Source: Oharaeibacter diazotrophicus (GTDB taxonomy: Bacteria > Pseudomonadota > Alphaproteobacteria > Rhizobiales > Pleomorphomonadaceae). From it: a DNA stretch of 64,000 nt. The stretch's first letter is position 1, and every line of letters starts with the position of its first letter. Below are positions 16,735 to 44,397 of this stretch, one piece after another. The stretch is from positions 250,501-314,500 of the forward strand of contig NZ_SNXY01000010.1 in assembly GCF_004362745.1 (NCBI RefSeq), written 5' to 3'. A model generated the notes under the pieces. That model searched no databases. It was not told the DNA's origin and saw only the letters and a program-made list of their open reading frames with translations. A program made the translations under genes and the position numbers.

Positions 16735-16755
16735 GGCAGTAGGCAGTGGGCAGTA
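16735..16755. repeat. Tandem GGCAGT-type heptamers (3 copies)
   Basis: Three adjacent 7-mers GGCAGTA, GGCAGTG and GGCAGTA lie just upstream, in plus orientation, of the palindromic element. A similar heptamer run precedes the related element at 42.7 kb. Confidence 0.7.
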
Positions 16756-16799
16756 GGGCGTCGGCTGTCGGGCTTCGATGGTGAGCGTCGCGGCGGCGG

Positions 16800-16981
16800 C
16801 CCCCTCTCCCTGTCCCTCCCCCTCAAGGGGGGAGGGGACGCGGTGGAGCAGTACGGCAGGTCCGGATCCGGCGGTGGCGCCGGGACGCTCTATCGCGCTG
16901 ACCTGCGACCGTCGAAGTTTCGCGAGACGTCGACATCATCGTCCCCTCCCCCCCTGGAGGGGGAGGGACAGGGAGAGGGGG
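16800..16981. repeat. MITE-like palindromic element (type C, copy 1)
   Basis: A 182-bp segment is bounded by perfect 25-bp inverted ends. The left arm begins CCCCCTCTCCCTGTCC at 16800; the right arm ends at 16981 as its exact complement. The interior has no coding frame. It sits in the gap between ydcS and ydcT. Confidence 0.8.
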
Positions 16982-40887: not shown

Positions 40888-42681
40888 ATGCCGATCTACC
40901 GCGCCCCCGTCGAGGACACCCTGTTCCTCCTGAACGACGTGCTCGGCCTCGAGCGCCACACCAACCTGCCCGGCTTCGCCGACGCGACGCCGGACATGGT
41001 CGAAGCGATCCTCGGCGAGGCCGCCCGCTTCGCCGAGGAGGTGCTGCAGCCGCTGAACCGGGTCGGCGACAAGGTCGGCTGCGTGCGCGGCGCCGACGGG
41101 ACGGTGACGACGCCGCCCGGTTTCCGCGACGCCTACGAGACCTATGCCGCCGCCGGCTGGGTCGGGCTCTCCGCCGATCCCGCCTTCGGCGGCCAGGGCC
41201 TGCCCTACACCCTCGCCGCCGCGGTCAGCGAGTTCGTCTCCTCGGCCAACATGGCCTGGGGCATGTACCCGGGCCTGACGCAGGGCGCGATCGCCGCGCT
41301 CGCCGCCCACGGATCCGACGACCTCAAGGCGCTCTACCTGCCGAAGATGGTCGCCGGCACCTGGACCGGCACCATGAACCTGACCGAGCCGCACTGCGGC
41401 ACCGACCTCGGCCTGTTGCGCACCAAGGCCGTGCCGGCCGAGGACGGGTCCTTCCGGATCACCGGCACCAAGATCTTCATCTCCGCCGGCGAGCACGACA
41501 TGGCGGAGAACATCGTCCACCTCGTCCTCGCCCGCATCGAGGGCGCGCCCGAGGGCGTCAAGGGCATCTCGCTGTTCGTGGTGCCGAAGTTCCTGCCCGA
41601 CGCGGCCGGCGCCCCCGGCGCGCGCAACGCCGTCTCCTGCGGTGCCCTCGAGGAGAAGATGGGCATCCACGGCAACGCCACCTGCGTGATGAACTACGAC
41701 GGCGCCACCGGCTGGCTGATCGGCGAGGCGCACAAGGGCCTGAGGGCCATGTTCACGATGATGAACGAGGCCCGCCTCGGCGTCGGCGTCCAGGGCCTCG
41801 CCCAGGGCGAGGTCGCCTACCAGAACGCCGCCGCCTACGCCAAGGACCGCGTCCAGGGCCGCGCGCTCACCGGCCCGAAGGCGCCCGACAAGGCCGCCGA
41901 CCCGATCATCGTCCACCCCGACGTCCGCCGCACGCTGCTCGCGATCCGCGCGATCAACGAGGCCGGCCGCGCGCTGATCCTGCACACCGCCCTGATGTCC
42001 GACGTCGCCCACCGCGCCGGCGACGACAAGGACCGGCAGGCCGCCGACGACTTCCTCGGCCTGATGACCCCGGTCATCAAGGGCTTCCTCACGGACAAGG
42101 GCTTCCAGGGCGCCGTCGAGGCCCAGCAGATGTTCGGCGGCCACGGCTACGTCGCCGAATGGGGCATGGAGCAGTTCGTCCGCGACGCCCGCATCGCCAT
42201 GATCTACGAGGGCGCCAACGGCATCCAGGGGCTCGACCTCGTCGGCCGCAAGCTGCCCGCCAACAACGGCCGCGCGATCCAGGCCTTCTTCCGCGAGATG
42301 GCCGGCTTCGTCGCCGAACGCAAGGCCGACCCGGTGCTCGGCCCCCTGGTCGCGTCGCTCGAGAAGGGCGTCGGCGACCTGCAGAAGGCGACCATGTGGT
42401 TCATGGCCAACGCCCTGAAGAACCCCGACAACGCCGGCGCCGGCTCGACCGACTACCTCGCCCTCGTCGGCCACGTCGTGCTCGGCTGGATGTGGGTCCG
42501 CATGGCCGAGACCGCCGAGCGCCTCGTCGCCGCCGGCGATCCGCGCCGGGACATGCTCGAGCGCAAGAAGATCACCGCCCGCTTCTTCATGGAGCGCCTG
42601 ATGCCGGAGACCGGCGCCTGCCTCGCCAGGATCTCCGCGGGGTCCGAGGCGATCATGGCGCTGCCGGCGGAGGCGTTCTGA
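40888..42681 (+). CDS. Acyl-CoA dehydrogenase, long (~600-residue) type
   Basis: The 597-residue flavoenzyme catalyses the first oxidation of beta-oxidation. It has the short N-terminal MPIYRAPVEDTLFLLNDV lead, the FAD-binding TMNLTEPHCGTDLG (about 160-175), the GIHGNATCVMNYDGA segment, QMFGGHGYVAEWGMEQ and the likely catalytic Glu of IYEGANGIQG. A C-terminal acyl-CoA dehydrogenase extension (about 480-597) marks the long subgroup. The ATG at 40888 follows GGAGGAAG. It is first in the MerR-controlled operon. Chain-length preference is not predictable. Confidence 0.93.
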   Translation: MPIYRAPVEDTLFLLNDVLGLERHTNLPGFADATPDMVEAILGEAARFAEEVLQPLNRVGDKVGCVRGADGTVTTPPGFRDAYETYAAAGWVGLSADPAFGGQGLPYTLAAAVSEFVSSANMAWGMYPGLTQGAIAALAAHGSDDLKALYLPKMVAGTWTGTMNLTEPHCGTDLGLLRTKAVPAEDGSFRITGTKIFISAGEHDMAENIVHLVLARIEGAPEGVKGISLFVVPKFLPDAAGAPGARNAVSCGALEEKMGIHGNATCVMNYDGATGWLIGEAHKGLRAMFTMMNEARLGVGVQGLAQGEVAYQNAAAYAKDRVQGRALTGPKAPDKAADPIIVHPDVRRTLLAIRAINEAGRALILHTALMSDVAHRAGDDKDRQAADDFLGLMTPVIKGFLTDKGFQGAVEAQQMFGGHGYVAEWGMEQFVRDARIAMIYEGANGIQGLDLVGRKLPANNGRAIQAFFREMAGFVAERKADPVLGPLVASLEKGVGDLQKATMWFMANALKNPDNAGAGSTDYLALVGHVVLGWMWVRMAETAERLVAAGDPRRDMLERKKITARFFMERLMPETGACLARISAGSEAIMALPAEAF

Positions 42682-42690
42682 GCGGGGTTG

Positions 42691-42727
42691 GTAGGCAGTA
42701 GGGCTTCGGCAGTCGGCAGTCGGCAGT
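42691..42727. repeat. GGCAGT-type heptamer run
   Basis: After GTAGGCAGTAGGGCTT come three perfect tandem CGGCAGT heptamers (42707-42727). It is equivalent to the heptamers at 16735-16755 and likewise precedes type C palindromic elements. Confidence 0.7.
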
Positions 42728-42795
42728 CGGGCTTCGCCGGTTCGCGATGCGGCGGTTCGGGATCAGGCGCACGGCCGATCCCACCCTCGACGAAC

Positions 42796-42834
42796 TCCCT
42801 CCCCCCTGGAGGGGGAGGGTTGGGGAGAGGGGGC
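42796..42834. repeat. Solo end of a type C palindromic element
   Basis: A right-arm-like sequence (CTCCCTCCCCCC then GGGGGAGGG and GGAGAGGGGG) forms its own hairpin and is followed by GACGGGCCGAGGTTT, similar to the sequence after the element end at 43075. Confidence 0.6.
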
Positions 42835-42905
42835 CGACGGGCCGAGGTTTCAAGTTGCGGCCGTCCCGCGTGGGTCGGCCGAGCAGGTCCGAGGGCGCGG
42901 CGTCG

Positions 42906-43075
42906 GCCCCCTCTCCCTGTCCCTCCCCCTCCAAGGGGGAGGGGACGCGGTGGGGATGGTCCGCCCGATGGACCGGGGTGATGACTCGCAGGCGGCGGTT
43001 CGGTGGTGGGTGCCCGGCTCCCACATCTTCCACGAGCCCCCTCCCCCTTGGAGGGGAGGGTCGGGGAGAGGGGGC
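42906..43075. repeat. MITE-like palindromic element (type C, copy 2)
   Basis: A 170-bp element: the left arm beginning GCCCCCTCTCCCTGTCCC at 42906 is nearly identical to the element at 16800, and the right arm ends GGGGAGAGGGGGC at 43075 with a few mismatches. It lies between the acyl-CoA dehydrogenase and thiolase genes of one operon. Confidence 0.75.
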
Positions 43076-43188
43076 AGACGGACGGAGGTTTGAGGTCGGG
43101 GCGACCCCGGCACGCCTCGGCCGGCGACCGGCCCCCGGCGCCGGCGCGGATACGAGAGAACGGTCCCGGAGGGGACGACGGAGGAGAG

Positions 43189-44397
43189 ATGACCGAGGCC
43201 TTCATCTACGATCACGTCCGCACGCCGCGCGGACGCGGCAAGTCGGACGGCGCGCTGCACGAGGTGCCGACCGTCGAACTGGCGGCGACGGCCCTGCGTG
43301 CCCTGCGCGACCGCAACGGGCTCGACACCCACCTCGTCGACGACGTCGTGCTCGGCTGCGTCGACCCGGTCGGCGAGGCCGGCGGCGACGTCGCCCGCTC
43401 GGCGGTGTTCGCGGCCGGCTACGGCGACCACGTGCCGGGCATCCAGATCAACCGCTTCTGCGCCTCCGGCCTCGACGCGGTCAACTTCGGCTCGGCCCAG
43501 ATCCTCGCCGGCCAGCACGACATGATCGTCGCCGGCGGCGTCGAATCGATGTCGCGCGTCGGCATCGGCGCCTCCGGCGGCGCCTGGCCGATGGATCCGG
43601 ACGTGGCGATCCCCGCCTGGTTCATGCCCCAGGGCGTCTCGGCCGACCTGATCGCCACCAAATACGGCTTCTCTCGCGACGACGTCGACGCCTACGCCGT
43701 CGAGAGCCAGCGCCGCGCCGCCGCCAGCTGGGCCGCCGGCGCCTTCGACCGCTCGGTCGTGCCGGTCCGCGACGTCAACGGCATCACCATCCTCGGCCGC
43801 GACGAGCACATGCGGCCGGGCACCGACATGCAGTCGCTCGGCGCGCTCAAGCCGTCCTTCGTGATGATGGGCGAGATGGGCGGCTTCGACGCCGTCGCCG
43901 TCCAGGCCCACCCGGATGTCGAGCGCGTCGAGCACGTCCACCACGCCGGCAACTCCTCCGGCATCGTCGACGGCGCGGGCGCTGTCCTGATCGGCAACGC
44001 AGAGGCCGGCGCGGCCGCCGGCCTGAAGCCGCGCGCCCGCATCCGTGCCTTCGCCAACATCGGCTCCGACCCCGCGCTGATGCTGACCGGCCCGGTCGAC
44101 GTCACCGAGAAGGTGCTGAAGCGCTCGGGCATGACGATCGCCGACATCGACCTCTTCGAGGTCAACGAGGCTTTCGCCGCCGTGGTGCTGCGCTTCCAGC
44201 AGGCCTTCGGCCTCGACGGCGACAAGGTCAACGTCGCCGGCGGCGCCATCGCCCTCGGTCACCCGCTCGGCGCCACCGGCGCCATGATCCTCGGCACCGT
44301 GCTCGACGAACTCGAGCGGCGGGACCTCAACACGGCCCTCGTCACGCTCTGCATCGGCGCGGGCATGGGCACGGCGACGATCATCGAACGGGTGTGA
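43189..44397 (+). CDS. Acetyl-CoA C-acyltransferase (thiolase)
   Basis: The 402-residue thiolase cleaves 3-ketoacyl-CoA in beta-oxidation (FadA-like). The acyl-accepting C91 (NRFCASGLDAV), the His of ALGHPLGATGA and the second Cys of LCIGAGMG are intact. The ATG at 43189 follows GGAGGAGAG closely. It is separated from the dehydrogenase gene by 507 bp of palindromic repeats but belongs to the same pathway and direction. Confidence 0.94.
   Translation: MTEAFIYDHVRTPRGRGKSDGALHEVPTVELAATALRALRDRNGLDTHLVDDVVLGCVDPVGEAGGDVARSAVFAAGYGDHVPGIQINRFCASGLDAVNFGSAQILAGQHDMIVAGGVESMSRVGIGASGGAWPMDPDVAIPAWFMPQGVSADLIATKYGFSRDDVDAYAVESQRRAAASWAAGAFDRSVVPVRDVNGITILGRDEHMRPGTDMQSLGALKPSFVMMGEMGGFDAVAVQAHPDVERVEHVHHAGNSSGIVDGAGAVLIGNAEAGAAAGLKPRARIRAFANIGSDPALMLTGPVDVTEKVLKRSGMTIADIDLFEVNEAFAAVVLRFQQAFGLDGDKVNVAGGAIALGHPLGATGAMILGTVLDELERRDLNTALVTLCIGAGMGTATIIERV

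Follow-up and report, generated by a model that had tools for sequence, protein, structure and literature searches.

Heptamers and triplex-motif palindromes sharing a beta-oxidation operon gap in Oharaeibacter diazotrophicus

The gap and its repeats

Do two kinds of short repeat that share one operon gap in Oharaeibacter diazotrophicus travel as a single element, or did they come together by separate routes? The question is raised by a gap of 507 bp between an acyl-CoA dehydrogenase gene and a thiolase gene, which holds, in order, six heptamer units, a palindromic pair and a third arm. An earlier note on this DNA had read the block at 42.7 kb, together with a similar one at 16.7 kb, as heptamers and palindrome that move or amplify as a unit. 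Throughout, the window is the whole 64-kb stretch of DNA analysed, and its relevant features are as follows.

40888..42681, + strand: acyl-CoA dehydrogenase gene, upstream neighbour (gene call; Pfam Acyl-CoA_dh_N/M/1 and Acyl-CoA_dh_C)
42694..42735, + strand: heptamer array of 6 units (unit reading; TRF period 7/14)
42781..42955, + strand: recurring convergent heterodimer, about 175 bp (10-locus alignment; inverted arms 91% complementary)
42797..42831, + strand: triplex-motif unit 1, second loop TTG, facing the heptamers (exact TM_ECO)
42909..42943, - strand: triplex-motif unit 2, second loop ACA (exact TM_ECO)
43039..43072, + strand: solo, degenerate triplex-motif unit with 1 error and second loop TCG (beyond the conserved dimer)
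43189..44397, + strand: acetyl-CoA C-acetyltransferase (thiolase) gene, downstream neighbour (NCBIfam NF006090; Pfam Thiolase_N/C)
16735..16776, + strand: comparison heptamer array at 16.7 kb, 6 units, 3 exact (pattern search)
16802..16979, no strand assigned: comparison divergent homotypic triplex-motif pair, ACA/ACA (TM_ECO pattern; loop typing)

Gene calls come from a codon-usage caller trained on the 64-kb window and applied unchanged to other genomes; it places the acyl-CoA dehydrogenase start at 40888, and the region scanned against Pfam began at 40891. The thiolase scores 707.6 bits against NCBIfam NF006090 (cut-off 514), and in a contig scan the nearest among the best 80 of 591 matches, from which the O. 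diazotrophicus genome is possibly absent, were Methylobacterium and other Hyphomicrobiales. The heptamer array begins 12 bp past the stop codon of the acyl-CoA dehydrogenase gene, is directed away from that gene and comprises four exact GGCAGTN and two GGGCTTC units. The GGCAGT-type heptamers described in the earlier note are real, since (GGCAGTN)3 with up to two mismatches matched three times in the window and at most 0 times in any of 100 shuffles. The same holds for the placement of the 42.7-kb and 16.7-kb composites, each of which is flanked by neighbour genes on the same strand. A search of 42600-43300 against Rfam returned 17 matches at E ≤5, all far under the gathering scores.

A thiolase of at least 80% identity is present in five relatives, with an acyl-CoA dehydrogenase gene directly upstream in each; thiolase matches of any kind occur in 10 of 20 family genomes, O. 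diazotrophicus included. In four of these five relatives the orthologous gap measures 31-47 bp (G005 47, G004 33, G002 46 and G001 31 bp) and holds neither repeat, so that the content of the 507-bp gap is most simply explained as a derived insertion. The orthologous gap of the fifth, G007, is 270 bp long and holds triplex-like palindromes of its own and no heptamers. One gap thereby seems to have been hit twice by different repeats, in O. diazotrophicus and in G007, and the longer gap of the latter complicates the history of the site.

Identity and placement of the two repeat families

We found a named counterpart for the palindrome, which the earlier note could match to no named element. Both arms of the 42.7-kb pair follow the TM_ECO/PIT consensus exactly, CCCTCNCCC-N3-6-GGGNGAGGG-N3-GGGNGAGGG, an intrastrand triplex motif whose pattern is taken from Holder et al. 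2015 (PMC4666352), which cites Hoyne et al. 2000. The window contains four exact matches (two at 42.7 kb and two at 16.8-17.0 kb), all of them intergenic by the gene calls, and 100 shuffles contain none, which confirms the palindrome arms as genuine. By sequence consensus the 42.7-kb arms are the triplex motif, with triplex formation as a prediction.

The arms at 42797-42839 and 42901-42943 are 91% complementary across a spacer of 61 nt. Ten convergent-pair copies align with conservation from about 42781 to about 42955 (ends placed by eye on the consensus), scant similarity outside and a variable sequence at the dimer centre, between the two units. What recurs is thus the first arm with the second, rather than a solo right end followed by a complete element of about 170 bp as had been proposed, and the third arm (43037-43080) is a separate, degenerate unit. 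The block at 16.7 kb begins with a divergent ACA/ACA pair and continues with two more arms, so the composites at 16.7 and 42.7 kb do not represent copies of a single element. Their left arms, said to be almost identical, are indeed similar, yet this likeness is that of members of one motif family.

The dimer at 42.7 kb is heterotypic (TTG/ACA). With up to three errors allowed, the O. diazotrophicus genome (G000) contains 14 divergent and 16 convergent pairs; 15 of the 16 convergent pairs are heterotypic, and seven of the 14 divergent pairs are homotypic ACA/ACA. A second type of convergent dimer, TTG/TTA, was seen at C10:231862-232192 (locus L214, C10:231000-233600), in two tandem copies 217 bp apart that adjoin a heptamer array.

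The motif is patchily distributed in the family. Exact TM_ECO sites were found in seven of 20 family genomes (G000 52, G001 37, G007 33, G002 31, G006 30, G013 6 and G008 4), and the reversed pattern, as a control, had 0 matches in O. diazotrophicus and in any of the 20. Individual placement of 49 of the 52 O. diazotrophicus sites put all of them within the 34 triplex loci analysed. Close pairs of exact sites in relatives, counted in G007, G001 and G002 with G006, G008 and G013 left out, were divergent in 30 cases and convergent in one (divergent/convergent: G007 9/1, G001 9/0, G002 12/0). G002 also has 132 hits to one 22-base palindrome half (at most one mismatch), and many of these lie in divergent pairs, about 160 bp long, whose inverted ends are extended (TGCCGTG...CACGGCA; L219-L224). 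Flanks were compared by eye for a few of 18 divergent G001/G002 pairs, and no target duplication of the kind expected of a MITE stood out.

Holder et al. report 3610 copies of the TM_ECO pattern across 262 genomes of proteobacteria, and the five inverted pairs that they describe from E. coli K-12 each combine two loop types; the available part of that paper describes no functional class among neighbouring genes and no sign of a general regulatory role (PMC4666352). To judge from the same text, the repeats described here share with TM_ECO/PIT the exact consensus, the intergenic location, the patchy occurrence among relatives and the inverted two-loop pairs, and four of the five E. coli pairs are convergent by our reading of its Table 1. 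They differ in loop types, being mostly TTG/TCG and ACA here and TTA and CCG in the published motif, as well as in the homotypic make-up of half the divergent pairs and in the association of the convergent dimers with heptamers.

The heptamers follow the edges of genes. Among 36 arrays at 22 heptamer-holding loci of O. diazotrophicus (C10:555k left out), 27 start no more than 50 bp from the gene behind, or slightly overlap it (21 at a 3' end, six at a 5' end), and no array ends that close to the gene ahead. The pattern recurs among 35 arrays at 25 loci of six relatives, where 24 lie near the gene behind versus two near the gene ahead, and one is inside a called gene; this sample takes in all loci listed for G005 (1), G007 (4) and G121 (7), part of those in G086 (5 of 8), G087 (6 of 8) and G136 (2 of 8), and none from G080 or G122. 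Arrays in O. diazotrophicus are 3-32 units long, and some form convergent inverted pairs (C6:553826/553891, C7:34710/34789, 379006/379094, 507669/507779); the 42.7-kb block has one array and no inverted partner for it. The heptamer locus counts for this genome are to be read as at least the numbers given, with exact triplets complete to C10:232302 and two-unit matches to C9:451032. Exact heptamer triplets occur in seven genomes, O. diazotrophicus included, out of 120 taken as a sample of the order.

Rehm et al. 2015 (PMC4692102) describe GGGNATC heptamers in Xanthomonas and Nostoc that obey a gene-edge strand rule. According to the available text of that paper, the two groups have in common a 7-nt unit, a mainly intergenic location and convergent inverted pairs, as well as their placement, at most 50 bp past a stop codon in sense or upstream of an ORF in antisense. 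The published class is also credited with a preference for four units. The unit here is GGCAGTN/GGGCTTC rather than GGGNATC, and partnership with a triplex motif is a feature of the heptamers here and not, in that text, of the published repeats. Moreover, GGCAGTN carries GG only and lacks the GGG tract that could form a G-quadruplex, and we regard quadruplex formation by this unit as doubtful on its sequence. The heptamers are therefore described as placed like the gene-edge class, yet are not filed as members of the G4 repeat. A literature search by the heptamer letters brought up no bacterial repeat paper among 15 of its 166 matches.

The heptamers might have been a transposon's terminal inverted repeats, a reading rejected because the edge rule and the inverted pairs are both published for heptamers unlinked to mobile elements. 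Since the heptamers are anchored at gene edges and point into the gap, the order of heptamers before palindrome needs no joint mobility.

Other heptamer loci have settings of their own. In O. diazotrophicus (C6:1272000-1278000, L263), arrays flank a small gene with the Pfam domain 23S_rRNA_IVP (PF05635; 2906-3372 of that region) on each side and point toward it, the gene itself lying between nuoC and nuoD; a similar small gene, judged from its translation, sits between heptamers in G007 (C6:330500-335500, L262, 2024-2472). Elsewhere in G007 (C13:72500-76000, L258, about 1440-1790), a tandem duplication seems to have taken in a gene's 3' end together with its heptamers, and an inverted array lies past the duplication. 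Heptamers stand beside other repeat families at three of five G005/G007 loci (L259, L260 and L261), where the neighbours are GGTCCGC...GCGGACC palindromes or 121-nt direct repeats, not triplex motifs.

Pairing and polarity

The independence of the two repeats could be assessed in about 4.04 Mb of the O. diazotrophicus genome (C6-C9 and the first 232 kb of C10, counted by hand). Of at least 20 heptamer loci in this sample, 13 lie no more than about 400 bp from a triplex motif and seven do not, one of the seven having a degenerate unit, and 15 of the 28 triplex loci are without heptamers. Heptamers and palindromes do occur apart, which is what the earlier note had named as evidence against mobility as one unit. 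Relatives bear this out, as no exact heptamer triplet was found in G001, G002 or G006 (37, 31 and 30 exact TM_ECO sites), and the four heptamer loci of G007 have none of its 33 exact sites in the 3.5-5 kb that surround them. A preliminary impression that G007 has heptamers and hardly any palindromes was an artefact of a single 22-mer.

The two repeats nevertheless meet far more often than chance would allow, and this part of the one-unit idea stands. For sets of 20 and 28 loci, an overlap of 13 has a hypergeometric probability of 1e-24 if 3600 gaps are assumed, or of 1e-13 for about 505 gaps of at least 300 bp, a figure extrapolated from eight window gaps. A triplex motif lies within 400 bp of 23 of the 36 O. 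diazotrophicus arrays and of 0 of the 35 in relatives, the latter count being informative for G007 alone, as the genome-wide motif search covered G007 and G005 of these six relatives and G005 has 0 exact sites. The association is specific to convergent pairs: heptamers are present at 12 of 14 convergent-dimer loci versus five of 20 other triplex loci (Fisher p 0.0013), and three of these five (C6:176k, C6:1755k and C9:478k), scored as non-convergent, look convergent with a degenerate partner. Our searches of the open-licence literature brought up no report of a pairing between heptamers and triplex motifs.

The pairing is also polar. At all seven one-sided loci of the TTG-or-TCG/ACA class (the 42.7-kb locus, C6:715k, 1552k, 1732k, 1763k, 1769k and C10:555k), it is the TTG/TCG end that is turned toward the heptamers, a result of a post hoc test with a two-sided p of 0.016; this polarity is kept at 1732k and 1769k, where heptamers and dimer follow each other in the opposite order with respect to transcription. 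Both one-sided loci of the TTA/TTG class (C6:1365k and C10:232k) turn their TTA end toward the heptamers. The other convergent heptamer loci have arrays on both sides (C6:539k and C7:701k) or a homotypic dimer (C10:541k). Polarity is thus constant within a dimer class and not between classes.

Three composites (C6:539.7k, 540.9k and C10:232k) look alike by eye from the heptamers to the palindrome, with alignment scores of z 3.5, 2.0 and 1.4, none above the best shuffle. In a comparison of 18 of 22 spacers (at least 30 nt; 60 mononucleotide shuffles per pair), the top pairs reached z 6.9 (1365k-232k) and z 6.3 (1552k-232k), and the best value for the 42.7-kb spacer was z 4.0, with a score equal to that of the best shuffle. 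The distance from heptamers to dimer ranges over 57-112 nt (C10:293k, C6:715k, 1552k, 1732k, 1763k, 1769k and C7:701k).

Origin of the composite block

We consider it probable that the block is a mosaic of known or near-known spacer repeats that accumulated in a short operon gap and are coupled by an unexplained, lineage-specific process. The heptamers are a GGCAGTN version of the gene-edge class, anchored at the gene and reading away from it, as their placement indicates, with arrays that may grow by replication slippage. The palindromes are TM_ECO/PIT units joined in a convergent heterodimer that may spread among gaps as a non-autonomous palindrome, a proposal based on its multiple copies in gaps. 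Anchoring of the heptamers by itself accounts for the order of heptamers and then palindrome. Independent insertion alone leaves the pairing and the polarity unexplained, and given the excess pairing and the polarity we therefore hypothesize a preference of the convergent dimer, in this lineage, for gaps that bear heptamers, either by entering them or by being copied together with them. A stronger form of this coupling, in which heptamers and convergent heterodimer form a polar composite unit or the heptamers act as a landing pad that sets the site and orientation of the dimer, is put forward tentatively. Nothing here proves the 42.7-kb block to be a new mobile element. The spread of triplex-motif palindromes and the role of gene-edge heptamers are questions left by the literature, as far as the available text goes (PMC4666352, PMC4692102), and a genome with polar pairing that is constant within a class, set against relatives without it, offers a natural comparison for whether one repeat guides another.

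The main competitor is a single composite, non-autonomous element, copied whole and with the heptamer array as one of its ends. Heptamers at nearly all convergent-dimer loci would follow directly from it, as would the polarity in both dimer classes, including the two order-reversed loci; the rarity of convergent pairs in relatives (one of 31 close exact pairs) and the visual likeness of three composites across the heptamer-dimer junction also speak for it. The variable heptamer-dimer distance, however, does not suit an element copied whole, nor do the two convergent-dimer loci without heptamers, the heptamer loci without palindromes and the edge rule that heptamers obey even away from triplex motifs. 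The polarity test is post hoc, as stated above, and the 42.7-kb spacer is without a clear relative, a weak point in itself since the dimer centre is also unconserved. Taken together, we judge a composite element rather unlikely.

That the repeats are instead selected regulatory parts, with a hairpin tuning mRNA stability between two beta-oxidation genes, appears very improbable. The predicted RNA fold of the dimer is very stable (-132 kcal/mol, z -7.8) and lies between two same-strand genes, and mRNA stabilisation is a hypothesised role of REPs in the available text of Di Nocera et al. 2013 (PMC3733652). Against this, the repeats are absent from the orthologous site in four of five relatives, the same triplex-motif units occupy many other gaps, and the neighbour-gene survey of Holder et al., cited above, points away from a regulatory role. 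Under the mosaic reading, transcription of the dimer would still produce a very stable intercistronic hairpin, which on the modelled fold probably affects mRNA decay or processing between the genes rather than classical termination. Neither a U-tract terminator nor a promoter pattern was found.

Equally remote is an origin of the palindromes as REP/REPIN sequences moved by a since-lost RAYT (Y1) transposase. They resemble REPINs in being short imperfect palindromes in inverted pairs, located in gaps and patchily distributed, and Y1_Tnp matches occur in eight of 40 genomes searched, O. diazotrophicus being among the 40. The O. diazotrophicus genome itself has 0 matches to PF01797 (Y1_Tnp), however, against matches in five of 14 control genomes, and the five genomes richest in TM_ECO (G000, G001, G002, G006 and G007) are all without one, whereas G014, G015 and G018 have Y1_Tnp and 0 exact TM_ECO sites. 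RAYT is accordingly disfavoured as the palindrome source. REPINs, as described in the available text of Bertels and Rainey 2011 (PMC3116915), share with the repeats here the arrangement of short palindromes as inverted pairs in gaps, and the missing RAYT match sets the two apart.

CGTC-tagged REPs were also considered. As presented in the available text of Di Nocera et al. (PMC3733652), these are palindromes found mostly in alpha-Proteobacteria, without a dedicated transposase and predominantly as head-to-head dimers, all of which recalls the dimer here, as does the GACG that follows the first unit in 10 of 10 aligned dimer copies. Their published form has a stem of 8-9 bp with AT in the first two positions and a CCA tail (PMC3733652). 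The assignment was rejected on the 10-copy alignment, in which the stem is G/C-rich, without AT pairs at its base, and there is no CCA tail.

A transposase gene of another kind was seen next to a triplex-motif unit elsewhere in O. diazotrophicus. At C6:1762154-1765178 (L059), an IS110-family transposase gene (PF01548 and PF02371; 175-1312 of that region) stops 13 bp from a unit with one error, as if the palindrome had been targeted.
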